Assembly (NCBI RefSeq): GCF_001831495.1
Contig: NZ_CP017689.1
Location: 2,232,001-2,296,000, forward strand
DNA: 64,000 nt
Origin: Thalassotalea crassostreae
Lineage (GTDB): Bacteria; Pseudomonadota; Gammaproteobacteria; Enterobacterales; Alteromonadaceae
Direction of reading: 5' to 3'
Below the pieces are notes generated by a model. That model ran no database searches. It saw nothing but the letters and a program-made list of their open reading frames with translations, and was not told the origin of the DNA. Positions 21,975-37,007 of this stretch are shown here, in pieces. The position numbers and the translations under genes are program-made. Position 1 is the stretch's first letter, and the number at the start of each line of letters is the position of its first letter.

Positions 21975-22002
21975 ATAACAAATATTAAAGGAATGGGGTT
22001 TG

Positions 22003-22425
22003 ATGACAGAAAGAACATATGTTGGTGAAATATATAGCCAAACGATGACCCTAACTATTCACGATATTGCAAATGGTGCGACGGCTCTTGGTGATACCAA
22101 TCCGATTCATTTTAATGAACAGGCGGCAATCAAAGCAGGTTACCCTGGTATTATTGCAAGTGGCGCACACACATCAGGATTGTGTGGTGGCGTATTAACA
22201 CAAAAATTTCAAGATACCGGCACTTTTATGGGCCTCGATTGCAGTTATCGGTTTCATCGCGCTGTATTACCAGATCAAGTATTAACCATTGTCTGGCGCA
22301 CAAATCGCATTGAATTTAAAAAGTCATTAAGTGGCTATCTTGTTTCTTTGTCTGGAAAAATGCTCGACGATGCTGGTAATGCATTAATTACCGCTAGAAT
22401 GAAAGTGCTTTTGCGTGACGACTAA
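22003..22425 (+). CDS. MaoC-family (R)-specific enoyl-CoA hydratase
   Basis: A 140-residue protein from the ATG at 22003, with an AAAGGA ribosome-binding site; a TTG directly before it is an alternative. The hydratase motif ALGDTNPIHFNEQAA is complete. Asp31 and His36 fall at the same spacing as the catalytic pair of Aeromonas PhaJ. GIIASGAHTSGL follows as the substrate-side loop. It should hydrate trans-2-enoyl-CoA to (R)-3-hydroxyacyl-CoA. It is the first gene of an operon with an MFS transporter 38 bases downstream, and likely acts after the acyl-CoA dehydrogenases of this region. Confidence 0.9.
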   Translation: MTERTYVGEIYSQTMTLTIHDIANGATALGDTNPIHFNEQAAIKAGYPGIIASGAHTSGLCGGVLTQKFQDTGTFMGLDCSYRFHRAVLPDQVLTIVWRTNRIEFKKSLSGYLVSLSGKMLDDAGNALITARMKVLLRDD

Positions 22426-28728: not shown

Positions 28729-29904
28729 TTAATATGAACGCGGCAAACCAAGAACGTGTTCACCTAAATAGTTCAACGTCATTTGTTGTGTTACCGGGGC
28801 CAAACGGAACAACTGACACTCTCTAAACCAACGTTCAACATGATATTCGCGAGCAAATCCACAGCCGCCCAAGGTTTGCATCGCATGATGCGTTGCTTCT
28901 AAAGCAGCTTCTGCAGCAAGCCATTTTGCCATATTCGCTACGTCGCCAACGTCTTTATCAGATTTGCCATCGTCGTATAAGGTAGCGGCTTTCAGTACTT
29001 GTCCCCAAGCAGCTTCTACTTTAGCGTACGCCGCAGCAAGAGGATGCTGAACAGCTTGATGGGCGCCAATAGGTTGACCAAATACGTTACGCTCTTTTGC
29101 GTATTCAATCGCGTGTTCAAGTGCAAGTTTAGCGGTACCGCAGGCGCCAGAGGCAATTAAAATACGCTCTGGATTTAAGGTGCCTAGTAATTGATAGAAG
29201 CCCTTTCCTTCTTCACCTAACAAGCAGTCTTTAGATACTCTTACATTATCAAAAAAGACTTGGAAGGATTTATAGTAATGATATCCGTGCTTATCTATTG
29301 GCGTATAACTGATCCCTTCACAGGGTAAATCTACTAGAAATAGTGAAATACCCGCCGCTTTATTTTTTACGTCTTCTTTTTTCGAAGTACGAGCAACAAC
29401 CAATACTGCATCAGTATTATCTATGTTAGTAATAAACCACTTGCCGCCATTTATTATATAATCATCACCTTCTTTTTTTGCAAAAGTCTCAATGTTTAAT
29501 GAGTTCGTACCAGCGTTAGGCTCTGATAAAGCAAAAGCACAGGTTTTTTCACCAGCTGCAAATGCCGGTAAATATTTAGATTTTTGTTCATCATTAGCAT
29601 GATGAGCCACAGATAAATTACCCAATAAGCCAAACAAGTAACCAAGCGCTGGACCACCGCCACCGCCACCGCGGCACAAAGCCTCCATGGCAAGTGCTAC
29701 ATCAGTTAAACCAGCGTCAGCACCACCCCACTTTTCTTCAAGTGGTAAACCAAAGAATCCTAGCGAGCCAATTTCTTCCATAAACTCTTTTGGATATTGT
29801 TTATTTTCATCCATTTCACGCCAGTATTCTGGGTCGTATTTTTTTGCAAGATCAGCAGCCATGTCGGCGATCATTTGCTGTTCCATGGTTAAATCAAAGT
29901 TCAT
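28729..29904 (-). CDS. Acyl-CoA dehydrogenase, pair member with IVD-like catalytic Glu
   Basis: A 391-residue acyl-CoA dehydrogenase: LPLEEKWGGADAGLTD, then CAFALSEPNAGTNS and KWFITNIDNTDAV for FAD and substrate, and helix-G sequence TLNPERILIASGACG. The C-terminus reads RLAPVTQQMTLNYLGEHVLGLPRSY, so the usual YEGT(S/A)EIQ Glu is absent. The Glu in NPERI lies where isovaleryl-CoA dehydrogenase carries its catalytic base. The enzyme may therefore be active with that geometry. It is 24 bases downstream of another acyl-CoA dehydrogenase, so the two are co-transcribed and may form a heteromer. AGGAAATAAC precedes the ATG. Confidence 0.9.
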   Translation of the reverse strand: MNFDLTMEQQMIADMAADLAKKYDPEYWREMDENKQYPKEFMEEIGSLGFFGLPLEEKWGGADAGLTDVALAMEALCRGGGGGGPALGYLFGLLGNLSVAHHANDEQKSKYLPAFAAGEKTCAFALSEPNAGTNSLNIETFAKKEGDDYIINGGKWFITNIDNTDAVLVVARTSKKEDVKNKAAGISLFLVDLPCEGISYTPIDKHGYHYYKSFQVFFDNVRVSKDCLLGEEGKGFYQLLGTLNPERILIASGACGTAKLALEHAIEYAKERNVFGQPIGAHQAVQHPLAAAYAKVEAAWGQVLKAATLYDDGKSDKDVGDVANMAKWLAAEAALEATHHAMQTLGGCGFAREYHVERWFRECQLFRLAPVTQQMTLNYLGEHVLGLPRSY

Positions 29905-29928: not shown

Positions 29929-31080
29929 TTAAAACGCACTTAAACCAGTGATGGCACGGCCAATCATTAGTTTTTGGATTTCGTTAGTCCCTTCGGTAAC
30001 ACGAAAAACTTTCGCCGCTCGCGCCATATATTCAACAGGGAATTCACGGGTAACACCATTACCACCGTGAATTTTAGTCGCTTCATCAACGATTTCGCAG
30101 GCTAAATCGGTGCAGTACCATTTTGCCATTGCCGCGTCGATGTCTGAGCGTTTCTTCATATCAATTGAATGCAGTGCTTTAAATGCCATTAACTTACCCG
30201 CTTCGATTTGGGTATACATAGTCGCTAGCTTTTCTTGCACGATTTGCTTGGCTGCAATTGGCTTACCAAATTGCACTCTATCAAGAGAATATTGTAGTGC
30301 TTCATCAAACGCCGCTTGGGCAATGCCCATCGCCATTAAACCTACGATAGGACGAGAAGATTGTAGTAATGTTAACAGCATTTTCAATCCTTGCCCTGGT
30401 GCTGCCACCATGTTTTCTCGAGGTACACGGCAGTTATCAAAGAATACTTGTGCGGTAGATTGGCTATTTAATGCTGTCTTGTCGATATTGGTGGTTTCAT
30501 AACCATGCTCTTCACGATCAACTAAAAATACAGCAAGACCAGTTTCATCGCCTTCAGTTACGTTTGCTAATACGTACATAAAATCTGAATAGTCACCTGA
30601 TGATATCCACATTTTTTCGCCGTTAATCACAAAATGATCAGCACCATCTGGCTTTGCACGACAAGTCGCTGAAGAAATATCAGAGCCAGTGCCTGGTTCA
30701 GATATAGCGACAGATGCGATTAGATCACACTCTAAGAATTTATCGAGATATATACTACGCAGTGGCTCAGGAGTACCGGCAACCATCTTACCAGAGGCAA
30801 AATAAATTAAGGTGGTGATGGCAATATCTGGCGAAACCCTTGCAAGCTCATGCATGAGTAGGCCTTGAGTCACCGCATCCATATCGAAACCGCCAAGCTC
30901 TTCAGGCAAAAAACCATTAACCACACCAAATGGTGCAAGTTTCTTTTGGATGTCTTTGGCTAATTCAGTTGGAATATATTTATCACGATATTCGTCAGCG
31001 ATTGGTTTAATTTCTGCTTGTAAGAATTTCTTAAAACCATCAACGGCGATAGTTTGCATTTCATCTAATGAAAAATCCAT
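29929..31080 (-). CDS. Acyl-CoA dehydrogenase, first gene of pair
   Basis: A 383-residue acyl-CoA dehydrogenase with ASVAISEPGTGSDISS, EKMWISSGDYSDF and the C-terminal RVTEGTNEIQKLMIGR, which carries the usual catalytic Glu. The helix-G region reads LLQSSRPIVGLMAMG and lacks the Glu found in its partner. The two genes thus carry the catalytic base at different places. The pair resembles adjacent acyl-CoA dehydrogenases of steroid and branched-acyl catabolism in actinobacteria, which form alpha2-beta2 enzymes; assembly here is inference. The gene lies after the terminator of the Paa-like operon and likely has its own promoter. Confidence 0.92.
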   Translation of the reverse strand: MDFSLDEMQTIAVDGFKKFLQAEIKPIADEYRDKYIPTELAKDIQKKLAPFGVVNGFLPEELGGFDMDAVTQGLLMHELARVSPDIAITTLIYFASGKMVAGTPEPLRSIYLDKFLECDLIASVAISEPGTGSDISSATCRAKPDGADHFVINGEKMWISSGDYSDFMYVLANVTEGDETGLAVFLVDREEHGYETTNIDKTALNSQSTAQVFFDNCRVPRENMVAAPGQGLKMLLTLLQSSRPIVGLMAMGIAQAAFDEALQYSLDRVQFGKPIAAKQIVQEKLATMYTQIEAGKLMAFKALHSIDMKKRSDIDAAMAKWYCTDLACEIVDEATKIHGGNGVTREFPVEYMARAAKVFRVTEGTNEIQKLMIGRAITGLSAF

Positions 31081-31323: not shown

Positions 31324-32178
31324 TTAATCGTAATCAAACGCAATGGTTTCTGGCTTATCCCATAAATCAATTTCATCTTGTACAGAAATAGACAATGGAC
31401 GGCGAGCCAAAATAGCGCCTTCATTGGTTGGAACTACGTATTCCCATAGTGCGGCAGGCATTTCACTACCTTCAGGGCGACGGCGTTTGTTATTACGTTC
31501 TGCTGGGTTAATCGAATCTACCAGCGCTTCAATTTTTTGTTCGGTAATATCAAGTACTTTAGCAAGTTTAGCTGAAGCTTCTTTGATAAACATTTGACGT
31601 GCATCCCATACCGACTGACTGCGAACACCCGAAGCTAACAGCTCACATTCAGATGATGCTTTCTCAGTACCGAACCAAGCGATAGCGGCGCCTAAACGAT
31701 GCGCAATACAGGCGATTGCTTCTTGCTTTTCAGCTTCTGTGAATAAAGTGAACCATCCATCAGAGTTTAAGCGGTGGAAATAACACTCTTTACCAAACGC
31801 TGTCATCATAGGCGCGATGTCACTGTGTGTTCCGTCTTTAAATGTTGCCATTAAGCGCCAAACTGCAAGCTCTGCCAAGTATGTGGTAACGATATAATCT
31901 CCGTAACTTTGCGGCGGATTATCAAGCATGTCCATATTATGAACTTCAACCGCTTTACGGCCGAATTCAATTTGGAAATCTGGTAAGTTATTTTCTTCTT
32001 CTAAATAACGGAATAATGCACGGGTATGGCCCCATGTATCTTGCGACATAGCACCTAGGGCCGTGGCATCTTGAAGATTACGGCTATTCATTAAGCTGCG
32101 TGTATACCAATGTCCTAATACCCACTCTGTATCAGCGATACAAAGTAATTCAGCCATTAAATTCTTTTCTATAGTCAT
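31324..32178 (-). CDS. paaC: PaaC-like structural subunit of a CoA-thioester oxygenase
   Basis: A 284-residue helical ferritin-like protein. CIADTEWVLGHWYTRSL, MSQDTWGHTRALFRYLEE and GKECYFHRLNSDGWFTLF align with E. coli PaaC segments LGEWCG, LLGQARNFLSYAAE and KEARYHLRFSRGWLERL. PaaC pairs with PaaA in the phenylacetyl-CoA epoxidase and does not carry the active diiron site in the known enzyme. This copy is about 35 residues longer than E. coli PaaC, with extra sequence at the C-terminus. It is the last gene of the operon. Sequence divergence suggests a different CoA thioester may be the substrate. Confidence 0.8.
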   Translation of the reverse strand: MTIEKNLMAELLCIADTEWVLGHWYTRSLMNSRNLQDATALGAMSQDTWGHTRALFRYLEEENNLPDFQIEFGRKAVEVHNMDMLDNPPQSYGDYIVTTYLAELAVWRLMATFKDGTHSDIAPMMTAFGKECYFHRLNSDGWFTLFTEAEKQEAIACIAHRLGAAIAWFGTEKASSECELLASGVRSQSVWDARQMFIKEASAKLAKVLDITEQKIEALVDSINPAERNNKRRRPEGSEMPAALWEYVVPTNEGAILARRPLSISVQDEIDLWDKPETIAFDYD

Positions 32179-32282: not shown

Positions 32283-32492
32283 CTATTCAGGCATCTTATG
32301 TTGCCATTTCATCCAACCAAATGTTTGTTTACAGCCATTACATTTGAATAAGATTTCTGAAACCGTTCCACCAAAAGGACTCGCAACCTGAGTATCTTCC
32401 GATTTGCACCAAGGACACTCGACAGTTTGATCGTACTCATCTTTAAAGACTTTCGAATCGTGTTTTTGTTTTGGATTATTATCTGTTGTCAT
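32283..32492 (-). CDS. Zinc-ribbon protein equal to the C-terminal half of PaaD
   Basis: A 69-residue protein from the ATG at 32492. The stop of the paaB-like gene overlaps it in TAATG. It has two Cys pairs, Cys26/Cys29 in CPWC and Cys51/Cys54 in CNGC. The spacing and sequence SPFGGTVSEILFKCNGCKQTFGWMKW match the C-terminal zinc ribbon of E. coli PaaD (SEFGSTACKALYRC...FDYFK). In E. coli this ribbon is fused to a MIP18/DUF59 domain. Here it is a separate gene, placed after paaB. It probably works with the MIP18-like protein to mature or stabilise the oxygenase. Confidence 0.82.
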   Translation of the reverse strand: MTTDNNPKQKHDSKVFKDEYDQTVECPWCKSEDTQVASPFGGTVSEILFKCNGCKQTFGWMKWQHKMPE

Positions 32493-32725
32493 TATGCAAA
32501 ACCGATTGGCGTATCTTCTTTGCCAATGATGCCAAGAATGTGATCTTGACGAACACAACATAATTCAACCCATGGTTTTTCTGAATATGTCATGTAGGCT
32601 TGCGCTCTGGCCAAATCTTCATTTAGCGCATATATACAACCTAAGTGGCTTAATTCTTTATCAATTTTTTCACGACCGAATACTTCGTATACGCTCGCAT
32701 CGGCTTTATGATCAAGCTTGCTCAT
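32492..32725 (-). CDS. paaB: PaaB-like subunit of a CoA-thioester oxygenase
   Basis: A 77-residue protein. VYEVFGREKIDKELSHLGCIYALNEDLARAQAYMTYSEKPWVELCCVRQDHIL aligns, piece by piece, with E. coli PaaB YEVFVRSKQGLSHRHVGSLHA...ALENARDAYTRR...IWVVKASEI. It lacks the last about 20 residues of E. coli PaaB. PaaB bridges PaaAC dimers in the known complex. It lies between the two PaaD-like genes and overlaps the zinc-ribbon gene by one base, so translation is coupled. Confidence 0.82.
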   Translation of the reverse strand: MSKLDHKADASVYEVFGREKIDKELSHLGCIYALNEDLARAQAYMTYSEKPWVELCCVRQDHILGIIGKEDTPIGFA

Positions 32726-32773
32726 AATTAACTCTTCTCTTTGTGAGTTATCGATTTACGATAACTAATAACT

Positions 32774-33109
32774 TTAAATCACATATCCGTGACGGGCTGC
32801 GCGTTCTCGTGCTTCTTCGGTGATGTGAGTTCGGTCCCATTGATGACCCCACTCGACTTTTACTTTGACTTTATCTACACCGTCTAAGTCACCTACACGC
32901 TTGCGAATATCAGCCATCATCAGCTCTAATGCTGGACAACCAATACAAGGTAAAACCAATCCAACATAAATGCCTTTATCAACGGTAGCCTCTACTCGTC
33001 TAACCATTCCCATATCAAGAATGTTGACACCCATGTGTGGGTCGATAACTTCCTTCAAAGCAGCATTAATAAGTTGTAATTGTTCGTTTACCAAAATGAC
33101 GCACCCCAT
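32774..33109 (-). CDS. paaD: MIP18/DUF59 protein equal to the N-terminal half of PaaD
   Basis: A 111-residue MIP18-type protein: ALKEVIDPHMGVNILDMGMVRRVE and LPCIGCPALELMMADIRKRV match the N-terminal domain of PaaD. ITEEARERAARHGYVI matches the PaaD segment before its zinc ribbon. The ribbon itself is missing here and is encoded at 32283-32492. MIP18-like proteins help assemble iron or iron-sulfur centres. The start at 33109 lies inside the paaA-like gene, with a 22-base overlap; a TTG at 33094 after a GGGG motif is another possible start. Either way the two genes are translationally coupled. Confidence 0.8.
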   Translation of the reverse strand: MGCVILVNEQLQLINAALKEVIDPHMGVNILDMGMVRRVEATVDKGIYVGLVLPCIGCPALELMMADIRKRVGDLDGVDKVKVKVEWGHQWDRTHITEEARERAARHGYVI

Positions 33110-34059
33110 TCTTCACGTTGTAAACGCTCATAAATTGCCGGGCGCATGCGACCACCTTTTTTCATGTTGTTTACGACATCAGTCCACTCACATTTTTCCC
33201 AGATCCAATCACCTGATTCACGATCCCATGTCATTGGGTATGGTAAGTCTAAAACGTACTTGCCTTCGTCTTCGTCAAAATGCGCAGGCACTTCACAGCC
33301 AATTCGTTTTGCTAGGTTACAAGCTGATTGCAACCACTTATCACGCATTTCATCGTTTGACCATTTACGTACGCCGTAAATAAGTTGGTCCATTTTTCCT
33401 TTCATCGCATCAGGACGGCCATACCAGAACACACCATGTGGGAATACCCAGTCAACGGCTTCTTGAACCATCGCACGCGTTTCATCGTTGTAGTTCCAAT
33501 AAAACTCCATCCAGTAAGAGCCATGGCGCATATGGAATGCTTCTTCAAAGTTAACCTTTCTTAATGCACGACGGTAAGGGGCGAATGAACAATGTAGCTC
33601 GATATCCCATGTTGTATAACGTCCTGCACGGTCTAAAAAGGCTTGAGCAACGACAAAATAAATGTAGTTCTTTAATTCAAACTCAAGGACTGGCATGGAC
33701 CAAAACCTTTCCGGTGGACGTTCAAATGCTTCTTTATGCATATCAACACCGAAACGCTCCCACAACATACCTTGCTGATGTGCGTGACCCACTTCATCTT
33801 GAATTGAACCAGATATTGCCATTTTGGCACCAAGATCAGGTGCTGTTACATAACCCGTTTGTGCCCATGTCAATACGGTCACCTCACCGGCTGCAGCGAT
33901 TTCTAATGTGTTTTCCAAAACTTTGCGGTATCGAGGGGTAAGCTCGTCTATATTTTCAATCAATTCGCCTGCTTTAATGCGATCAAGCATCGCTTGTTCA
34001 GCAGGATCGTCGGCTACCATTTCTGGTTTTGCCATTGGTCGAATAACGGTTGATTCCAT
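33088..34059 (-). CDS. paaA: PaaA-like diiron subunit of a CoA-thioester oxygenase
   Basis: A 323-residue protein from the ATG at 34059, with GGAG eight bases upstream; a TTG four codons earlier is part of that ribosome-binding site. Diiron ligands are visible: Glu59, the pair Glu89/His92 in QDEVGH, and Glu173/His176 in FEEAFH. E. coli PaaA has QDEAGH and KEESFH at matching places, and SFAPYRRAL matches its SYGPYARAM. Overall similarity is limited. PaaA epoxidises the aromatic ring of phenylacetyl-CoA with oxygen and a PaaE-supplied electron. No PaaE is in the window, so the electron donor and the true substrate remain open. Confidence 0.85.
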   Translation of the reverse strand: MESTVIRPMAKPEMVADDPAEQAMLDRIKAGELIENIDELTPRYRKVLENTLEIAAAGEVTVLTWAQTGYVTAPDLGAKMAISGSIQDEVGHAHQQGMLWERFGVDMHKEAFERPPERFWSMPVLEFELKNYIYFVVAQAFLDRAGRYTTWDIELHCSFAPYRRALRKVNFEEAFHMRHGSYWMEFYWNYNDETRAMVQEAVDWVFPHGVFWYGRPDAMKGKMDQLIYGVRKWSNDEMRDKWLQSACNLAKRIGCEVPAHFDEDEGKYVLDLPYPMTWDRESGDWIWEKCEWTDVVNNMKKGGRMRPAIYERLQREEWGASFW

Positions 34060-34147
34060 TGTTGTCTCCAATTAATAAGGATTTTATTATCTTGAGTTTT
34101 GTTTGGTTTGCACTAAGCAAACGTCATGTAACTAAAATTAGCAGCCA

Positions 34148-34505: not shown

Positions 34506-35537
34506 CTATGCGAATAGATAAATGCCCGCTAAAATCAGCACCGCAAACACTAGAGTTTCAGCCGTTATCAACACGACTGGTTTCCAACCTACGGAAACAA
34601 TTTGTTTTAATGAGGTTTTAACGCCAATTGCCGCAATTGAGACTACTAAACACCAACTCGATAATGTTTTGATCATGTTAGCAACTTCAGCAGGAATTAA
34701 GCCGATATTATTGAGCACTGCTAAAATAAAAAATCCAATAAGAAACAATGGAATAAACGTTGTCACCCCACCTTCCATTTTAGAGCCACGTTCTTTAAAC
34801 GAGAAAAAGATAATCATCACTATCGGCAATAACAGTGCAACACGCAGTAGCTTGATGTAAGTCGCTATATCACCGGCTTCAGGAGAAATTGAGTAGCCTG
34901 CGCCCACCACTTGTGCGACATCATGAATTGAACCACCGATAAATACCCCGGCCAAATCGTCTGGTAAGCCTAAATAAGCAACAATTAACGGATAAACAAC
35001 CATGGCGATAGTACTTAGCGTTGTTACACCAATAACGGTTAATGCAAAGAACTTTTCTTCATATTCTTTTCTCGGTAAAACCGTTGAAATCGCAGCGGCC
35101 GCTGAAACACCACATACCGCAACAGAGCCAGATGACAATACACCGAAGACTCTTGATAAGCCAAGCGCCTTAGATAGCACGATACCAAATAGCATCATTA
35201 ATGCCATCGAGACCATGACTATCATTGGTGGTGTTATACCAAGCGAAACGATATCCGAAAAGGCAATACGTACTCCGAGCAATGCTACAGCAAACCGCAA
35301 TACCGCTCGTGATGAAAAATTAATACCGGCTTGGTGCTTAGGCGATTCATATAAAAAGTGTAATGCTAAACCAAGTAACAGTGCAAACAGCATAACTGGT
35401 GCGTCATAGCGAGCAGCTAATGCACCTGATGCAATAGCAATTAATACACTGATGGCTACGCCAGAGTAATAAGAATTACATTTAGCAAAAAAATTGCTCA
35501 TTAGAGAATGAACGCTAGAACTGCTTTGCGATGTCAT
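34506..35537 (-). CDS. YeiH/UPF0324-type putative sulfate exporter family protein
   Basis: A 343-residue protein with about ten hydrophobic helices. The core VFGVLSSGSVAVCGVSAAAAISTVLP and FIGGSIHDVAQVVGAGYSIS are hallmark segments of the UPF0324 family. Some members are proposed to export sulfate or sulfite during organosulfonate use (TauZ-like), but most are uncharacterised. It has its own terminator and lies between the Paa-like operon and an acyl-CoA dehydrogenase. If the substrate of the island contains sulfur this would make sense, but the location alone does not show it. Confidence 0.88.
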   Translation of the reverse strand: MTSQSSSSVHSLMSNFFAKCNSYYSGVAISVLIAIASGALAARYDAPVMLFALLLGLALHFLYESPKHQAGINFSSRAVLRFAVALLGVRIAFSDIVSLGITPPMIVMVSMALMMLFGIVLSKALGLSRVFGVLSSGSVAVCGVSAAAAISTVLPRKEYEEKFFALTVIGVTTLSTIAMVVYPLIVAYLGLPDDLAGVFIGGSIHDVAQVVGAGYSISPEAGDIATYIKLLRVALLLPIVMIIFFSFKERGSKMEGGVTTFIPLFLIGFFILAVLNNIGLIPAEVANMIKTLSSWCLVVSIAAIGVKTSLKQIVSVGWKPVVLITAETLVFAVLILAGIYLFA

Positions 35538-35726: not shown

Positions 35727-36875
35727 TTAAGATAACAAATCTCGAGCAATAATGACTTTTTGAATTTCACTAGTGCCTTCATATATGGACGTGATACGCA
35801 CATCACGTGCCATACGTTCAAGTGGATATTCTTTAATATAGCCAGCACCACCAAGCATTTGCAGAGCGTCATAGCACGCGGTATTTGCTTTCTCTGCAGC
35901 AAACAATTTAGCCATAGACGCCGCAGGTCCAAACGGTAAGCCCTGCTCTTTTAAGTATGCCGCTTGCATAATTAACAATCGCGCCGCTTCCATTTCGGTA
36001 TAACGTTCAGCCATCATCCATTGTAGGCCTTGGAAGTTGCTGATTGGTTGGTCAAATTGCTTTCGCTCTTTGGTAAATTCTTTGGCGTAATCTAATGCAG
36101 CTAAACCAATACCTAAAGCAAGCGAGCCAATACCAATACGACCGCCAGCTAACTCACCAACGGCAACACCGAAGCCTTTATTTTCTTGGCCCATTAGAGC
36201 ACTTGCTGGTACACGACAATTTTCAAAATGTACTTCATTTGTTGGTGAAGCTTTTTGTCCCATTTTGTCTTCATTTTTGCTTATATTTATACCTGGCGTA
36301 TTTGCTTCAACGATAAAACAAGAAATGCCACGACCTTTCTTTGCGTCAGGATCTGTGACAGCCCAAACCACAAATACACCGGCAAAGTTTCCACTGGTGA
36401 TATAGATTTTACTGCCATTTAAAATATAGTCATCGCCGTCTTTAACTGCCGTAGTTTTCATCCCTGCAGGATCAGAGCCTGCACCAGATTCAGTTAAACA
36501 AAACCCGCCTGCAAGGTATTCACCGCTACAAAGTCTTGGCAAATAAGTCTGCTTTTGTTGTTCATTACCTACAGCTTGAATAACTTCAGCAACCATATTA
36601 CTTACCGACGTGGTTACCGCAGTTGATGCACATGCCTTGGCAATTTCAGTTATTGCTAAAGAAAACGCAACTACCCCTGCTTCAACGCCACCGTACTCAG
36701 CTTTGATGTTTAATCCCATAAAACCTAACTCAGACAATTGCGCTAAGTTTTTCTTAAAGATTTCTTGGTCACCGGTTTCATCAAGATGAGCAGCAACAGG
36801 GGCTAACTCAGATTCCGCAAATTTCTTTGCCATATCTTGAATCATCATTTGTTCTTCAGTTAATGAAAGGTTCAT
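35727..36875 (-). CDS. Acyl-CoA dehydrogenase, short-chain/2-methyl-branched type
   Basis: A 382-residue protein from the ATG at 36875 (GGA upstream). The frame is open for 13 more codons, but the start MNLSLTEEQMMIQDMAKKFAE is the usual family start. ASTAVTTSVSNM, GFCLTESGAGSDPAG, KIYITSGNFAGVF and the C-terminal IYEGTSEIQKVIIAR with the catalytic Glu are all present. It resembles short/branched-chain acyl-CoA and isobutyryl-CoA dehydrogenases. It dehydrogenates a CoA thioester and reduces ETF. It stands alone between two terminators. Confidence 0.93.
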   Translation of the reverse strand: MNLSLTEEQMMIQDMAKKFAESELAPVAAHLDETGDQEIFKKNLAQLSELGFMGLNIKAEYGGVEAGVVAFSLAITEIAKACASTAVTTSVSNMVAEVIQAVGNEQQKQTYLPRLCSGEYLAGGFCLTESGAGSDPAGMKTTAVKDGDDYILNGSKIYITSGNFAGVFVVWAVTDPDAKKGRGISCFIVEANTPGINISKNEDKMGQKASPTNEVHFENCRVPASALMGQENKGFGVAVGELAGGRIGIGSLALGIGLAALDYAKEFTKERKQFDQPISNFQGLQWMMAERYTEMEAARLLIMQAAYLKEQGLPFGPAASMAKLFAAEKANTACYDALQMLGGAGYIKEYPLERMARDVRITSIYEGTSEIQKVIIARDLLS

Positions 36876-37007
36876 AGTAGTTCCAAATATATTATTTATG
36901 ACGCAAAGATACACCGTTAAGTTAGAATTAACTAGATGTATGAAACATTCTCGACGTTATTTAAAATTTTATCATGATGAAAAGTGTATGATATTTTGTA
37001 CATAAAA

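Follow-up and report, generated by a model that had tools for sequence, protein, structure and literature searches.

The window analysed here, to which all coordinates refer, is the whole stretch of 64,000 nucleotides from Thalassotalea crassostreae (contig NZ_CP017689.1, positions 2,232,001 to 2,296,000). On its minus strand lie five genes in the order A-N-B-R-C, followed by two acyl-CoA dehydrogenase genes. The first, A (33088-34071, minus strand; likely start at the ATG at 34059, conserved in locus L005), encodes a PaaA-like diiron oxygenase subunit that matches PF05138 (PaaA_PaaC) with 115.3 bits. Against the PaaA model TIGR02156 it reaches 91.8 bits, under the cut-off of 280, and six other A proteins of its branch also remain below that value, at 87-132 bits. 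Next come N (32774-33109, minus strand), a stand-alone MIP18 protein of 111 residues resembling the N-terminal part of PaaD (PF01883, FeS_assembly_P, 59.1 bits), and B (32492-32725, minus strand), a PaaB-like protein of 77 residues that scored 22.1 bits with TIGR02157 (PaaB), under the cut-off of 85.45, and gave no match in the Pfam search. A profile built from the relatives of B also recognises its counterpart in canonical-type operons, with scores of about 22-36 bits. As a separate observation, B weakly matches the NCBIfam model 'Htur_1727 rSAM-partnered candidate RiPP' (19.6 bits, cut-off 57.2), and this model may overlap with PaaB-like proteins. R (32283-32492, minus strand) is a stand-alone PaaD-type zinc ribbon of 69 residues, and C (31324-32178, minus strand) is a PaaC-like scaffold subunit of 284 residues, which matches PF05138 with 55.7 bits and the NCBIfam PaaC equivalog with 30.5 bits, under its cut-off of 133.35.

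A first-pass annotation of this DNA had described PaaA-like, MIP18, PaaB-like, ribbon and PaaC-like genes, with N and R as intact, separate genes matching the two domains of PaaD, and this description is correct. The ribbon does not come from an unrelated family, as R matches PF23451 (Zn_ribbon_PaaD) with 62.4 bits against a gathering score of 27. The junctions had all been called overlapping or tightly spaced. A and N do overlap by 22 bases and B and R by 1 (TAATG), and N and B are 48 bases apart, but the gap of 104 bases between R and C is not tight. Neither a second PaaA_PaaC pair nor a second PaaD-type ribbon was found in the complete 3.86 Mb genome; only one Paa-like system is present.

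The letters of A at E63, E93, H96, D147, E176, E177 and H180, which we take to be the diiron ligands from an alignment with the solved PaaA, are kept in 89-90 of 90 rows and are the same in 10 of 10 canonical rows. C does not have the full ligand set, with for example T at the E93 position. The two Cys pairs noted at first sight in the ribbon are indeed kept, the four cysteines being invariant in all 82 aligned copies. In the CIGC motif of the MIP18 protein the second cysteine, C58, occurs in 99% of 89 rows and the first, C55, in less than 80%; the two canonical PaaD proteins compared have one Cys at this site.

Conservation of the locus within the genus

The operon was found in 4 of 14 congeners, in which A is 87-96% identical and C was found in the same four. 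All four keep the five genes in the A-N-B-R-C order. Compared with these congeners, N shows dN values of 0.014-0.25 with dS values of 0.33-1.80, and R shows dN values of 0.03-0.20 with dS values of 1.4 and 2.8 and saturation in two cases; both genes are under purifying selection. The conserved arrangement is wider than the operon itself, since the order OprB-ACAD-YeiH-A-N-B-R-C-ACAD-ACAD is kept in the four congeners, two of which carry an additional gene, for an amidohydrolase, between C and ACAD2. In the window the flanking genes, all on the minus strand, are the acyl-CoA dehydrogenase genes ACAD1 (35727-36914), upstream of A, ACAD2 (29929-31080), next after C, and ACAD3 (28729-29904), all three recognised by Pfam, and the gene for a YeiH-type membrane protein directly upstream of A (34506-35537; PF03601). 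Each of these four genes is present in every operon-bearing congener. Whether the YeiH-type gene and ACAD1 have a part in the oxygenase system is uncertain.

Separate MIP18 and ribbon genes are the rule in the A-N-B-C-R branch

We then considered how widespread such an arrangement is. A match to A was obtained in 25 of the 369 genomes of the class (its own included), the ten best outside showing 24-27% identity, and the ribbon family scored over the cut-off in 19 of the 369. The 18 ribbon genes besides that of the window all lie beside a PaaC-like gene, in canonical-type gammaproteobacterial loci where the MIP18 and ribbon domains share one frame in 17 cases. In the remaining locus, L139, the sole case of the 18, they lie in different reading frames, by error or decay. 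Against gammaproteobacteria alone, the layout of the window looks odd.

A large second branch was reached by tblastn against plasmids and by an alignment scan of GTDB genomes, which found no relative with a single protein as query and 434 with an alignment as query. The best 80 of these 434 were examined, and our statements on the branch rest on these 80, so that fused PaaD may occur among the others; from the plasmids, 6 of 197 matching records were examined and one further region was viewed as annotation only. The rows originate from, among others, haloarchaea, Actinomycetota, Chloroflexota, Bacillota, Acidobacteriota, Gemmatimonadota, Armatimonadota, Bipolaricaulota and Pseudomonadota. Among the best 80, N and R are separate in all 71 loci that have all five genes (55 A-N-B-C-R, 13 A-N-B-B-C-R and 3 A-N-B-R-C), and the other nine are incomplete, cut by a contig end. 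R is present in these 80 loci wherever the contig reaches the ribbon position, so the N and R proteins go together. Separate genes were also seen in 6 of 6 plasmid operons, from Agrobacterium, Thermus and four haloarchaea. The single frame holding both domains among the 80 loci is part of an additional operon of canonical type in L108 (Bacillota), and fused PaaD was met only in operons of that type. A second separate-gene form, the near-canonical operon A-B-C-N-R, was read in five haloarchaeal loci (L235-L239), and in each of them N and R are adjacent and lie in different frames. These loci were chosen because their N passes the cut-off of NF041868, as was the case in 5 of the 10 genomes or records screened. 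Separate N and R genes, with N between A and B, are the rule in the A-N-B-C-R branch, and the separation of the two domains, initially thought unusual, is not so in these 71 five-gene loci or in the haloarchaeal form.

Two side observations concern annotation and copy number. Two tandem copies of the PaaB-like gene occur in 15 of the 80 GTDB loci (L072, L076, L077, L079, L080, L081, L084, L087, L094, L106, L114, L118, L121, L124 and L126) and on the Thermus plasmid L039. The ribbon gene, which is easily missed in annotation, has no listed CDS in 3 of the 6 plasmid operons (L037, L039 and L041); the PLSDB gene table is incomplete, and the original plasmid records may list this CDS.

Relocation of the ribbon gene and direction of the domain change

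Two PaaA trees were built, a larger one of 101 rows, with two L076 fragments left out, and a smaller one of 39 of those rows plus 5 haloarchaeal rows. The branch of the window is set apart from canonical-type PaaA at 100/100, with a long-branch warning at that join in both trees, and the first-pass view of a distinct branch of the epoxidase family thus holds. The branch falls into two halves: the window belongs to clade I, along with proteobacteria and some other rows, and clade II comprises Thermus, haloarchaea, Rubrobacter and Chloroflexota. The A-N-B-R-C operons form one clade, made up of the genus of the window, L050 (Gammaproteobacteria), L051 (Lysobacterales) and L052 (Rhizobiaceae), with an SH-aLRT support of 99 in the larger tree (8 rows) and 100/100 in the smaller (5 rows). 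On the PaaA tree the minimum number of changes is two for gene order and one for the fused or separate state. The ribbon gene lies between B and C in 3 of the 71 loci (L050-L052) and in the genus of the window, and this position ahead of C, due to one relocation, is the sole peculiarity of the window. R overlaps B by 1-8 bases in L005, L050, L051 and L052 and by 1 base in the window; judging from these overlaps, translational coupling with B probably accompanied the move of R.

The direction of the change between fused and separate genes was read from a MIP18 tree whose outgroup, supported at 92/93, consisted of stand-alone MIP18 proteins (12 rows) and Mrp-type ones (4 rows). All 18 fused rows fall into one inner group (91/80), the haloarchaeal separate form is its sister (84/80), and N of the A-N-B-C-R branch lies outside both, so that one change between the fused and separate states suffices. 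An earlier quick tree likewise keeps the fused rows together. The MIP18 trees have 97-99 columns, the outgroup tree 97, and moderate supports at the key forks. Nine rows scoring as operon copies were left out of the outgroup tree, together with one long Mrp-type row (L189) that had fallen among operon rows in the quick tree; the latter was made without six rows repeating operon rows. The inner position of the fused rows, with a stand-alone outgroup, makes fusion a likelier event than splitting, and on this moderate evidence the fused PaaD would be the derived state. The initial picture of B inserted into a split paaD is not supported, N between A and B being the branch rule and fused PaaD likelier derived.

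The reverse history, in which an originally fused paaD broke in two and B and C ended up between the parts, seems to us unlikely. Change counts are blind to gain versus loss and one split would be enough with a root among the fused rows, whereas with the root between the two large PaaA branches splitting takes two events and fusion one. The occurrence of fused PaaD in both Bacillota (L108) and Gammaproteobacteria speaks for an ancestral fusion; the nesting of fused rows next to a haloarchaeal separate form in the outgroup tree, although based on few columns, speaks against it.

Neighbouring genes and the likely substrate

The best scores obtained in the complete genome were 83.9 bits for the PaaE model (cut-off 420.8; model positions 4-243 only), 84.4 for PaaK (cut-off 646.3) and 133.8 for the PaaZ/PaaN models (cut-off 562.8). 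Because PaaE, PaaK and PaaZ do not exceed their cut-offs in this genome, the substrate is probably other than phenylacetyl-CoA. In clade II loci longer than 15 kb, genes of the broad crotonase and aldehyde-dehydrogenase families are found in 44/49 and 22/49 cases, respectively, compared with 13/20 and 4/20 in clade I, and clade II therefore fits the phenylacetate route better.

Relatives of ACAD2 are found in L050 and L051 (46% and 51% identity, respectively) and a relative of ACAD3 in L050 (59%). An amidohydrolase gene lies near the operon in L201 (5898-7253), L202 (6301-7656), L050 (11558-12928) and L051 (2391-3719); the L201 protein is 45-46% identical to those of L050 or L051, and the start of the protein resembles a signal peptide, as judged by eye. 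At an E-value of 1e-20 this gene was not found in the window, in L200 and L203 or in the other 78 GTDB loci, L052 included. The amidohydrolase and the shared acyl-CoA dehydrogenases suggest that an amide or ester might be hydrolysed outside and then undergo CoA-dependent breakdown. The YeiH-type gene adjoins A in all 5 operon-bearing genomes of the genus and lies no more than about 4 kb from A in each of the 6 Bradyrhizobium loci (L065-L069 and L071), and is absent from all other loci searched; such a neighbour could suggest a sulfonate-related substrate. A MaoC gene at 22000-22425 was considered and rejected as part of the system, since its 21% identity (E = 0.013) to the MaoC of L051 is no convincing similarity. 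Finally, 24 of the 49 clade II loci longer than 15 kb have a 2Fe-2S protein gene near the operon, and all 25 loci with such a nearby gene are haloarchaeal.

Proposed function of N and R

We consider it quite probable that the operon encodes a PaaABC-type diiron CoA-thioester oxygenase served by N and R as separate maturation factors acting in trans, and that the separate state is the normal and probably the older one. On the basis of family matches and conserved residues, A would carry the diiron site and B and C would be structural partners, by analogy with the known subunits. The job proposed for fused PaaD is the maturation of the oxygenase, by loading or repair of its metal site. That N and R are always kept together fits a joint task and, by analogy with PaaD, the MIP18 protein and the four-Cys ribbon may cooperate in loading or repairing the metal site of A. 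As R is encoded as a separate chain throughout the branch, any action it may have on the complex must be in trans. In the lineage of the window, the ribbon gene would have moved from behind C to its place between B and C, overlapping B. The substrate would be some acyl-CoA, probably not the phenylacetyl thioester, handled with the neighbouring acyl-CoA dehydrogenases, and electrons would come from a reductase encoded elsewhere. A, B and C are far under the equivalog cut-offs, and the reaction may therefore differ from the canonical one. We more tentatively put forward a wider reading, which we would rather doubt than assert as a whole: the A-N-B-C-R operons may be a large second family of oxygenases of CoA thioesters, built like PaaABC, with two free proteins required for maturing the diiron site, a condition that would predate fused PaaD, and the sub-branch of the window, with its two acyl-CoA dehydrogenases, sometimes an amidohydrolase of secreted type, and a reductase that is not PaaE, may act in a catabolic pathway.

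Alternatively, the ribbon could be a rubredoxin-like iron protein that passes electrons to A and replaces PaaE, as might be imagined from its four invariant cysteines, from a genome without PaaE over the cut-off and from the name 'PaaE' that NCBIfam gives to the haloarchaeal ribbon. We find this improbable, since canonical-type PaaD carries this very ribbon on one chain with MIP18, and operons with fused PaaD also have PaaE, while haloarchaeal loci of the branch have the 2Fe-2S protein gene nearby. The structure model of R (mean pLDDT 74.5) resembles zinc ribbons (Dof, NrdR and Rpb9), all weakly, and the fold matches listed for it contain zinc ribbons and no rubredoxin, which alone does not count against the rubredoxin reading. 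Matches of the ribbon profile to solved structures are also weak, the best (E = 0.0025-0.006) being to a lysine-biosynthesis protein, to subunit P of an archaeal RNA polymerase and to a domain of the RPB9 type, compared with E-values of 0.22 and 0.34 for rubredoxins. Disruption of an intact fused paaD by a frameshift or by faulty assembly, for which the two frames of L139 are a precedent, has a negligible chance of explaining the window, where a whole B gene parts N and R and where four congeners show the same order with low dN/dS, and the artefact that the first-pass annotation had allowed for is thereby ruled out.

Maturation by separate N and R proteins thus remains our preferred reading, and the original observation is sound, its interpretation as a splitting being overstated. 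What is new is the breadth of the separate-gene branch, the likely direction of the change, a fusion, and one small relocation in the sub-branch of the window. Should this view of the branch be correct, PaaD joins in one chain two proteins that the relatives examined here produce singly, and the roles of MIP18 and ribbon in diiron oxygenase maturation could be tested individually, with no need to cut a protein. Moreover, a distinct branch, perhaps with other substrates, would be included among the operons that carry a phenylacetate-catabolism annotation.

Comparison with known systems

The window shares with canonical PaaABCDE the PaaA/PaaC family, a B-like subunit, the MIP18 and ribbon domains and the letters at the diiron-ligand positions. 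However, canonical-type PaaD is one chain, whereas N and R are here two genes with B between them, in the order A-N-B-R-C; furthermore, A, B and C score under the NCBIfam equivalog cut-offs and no PaaE exceeds its own. The haloarchaeal A-B-C-N-R operons also have separate MIP18 and ribbon proteins, already curated as separate families (NF041868 and NF041869), but their N and R genes are adjacent, in different frames and behind C, and their A scores 211-252 bits with the canonical PaaA profile. N and R of the window fall under the cut-offs of both families (61.7 bits against 180 for NF041868 and 34.4 against 100 for NF041869). We note that the name PaaE given by NCBIfam to the ribbon model NF041869 clashes with that of the reductase PaaE. 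The window also resembles the A-N-B-C-R operons of Agrobacterium, Thermus and haloarchaeal plasmids, annotated as 'Phenylacetic acid catabolic protein', 'iron-sulfur / metal-sulfur cluster assembly factor' and 'hypothetical protein', which belong to the same branch and have the same five genes with N between A and B. They differ in that their ribbon gene follows C instead of preceding it, and in the higher frequency of nearby crotonase and aldehyde dehydrogenase genes, particularly in clade II. With A in this branch, N between A and B and the ribbon gene displaced, the operon of the window is a variant of the A-N-B-C-R branch.
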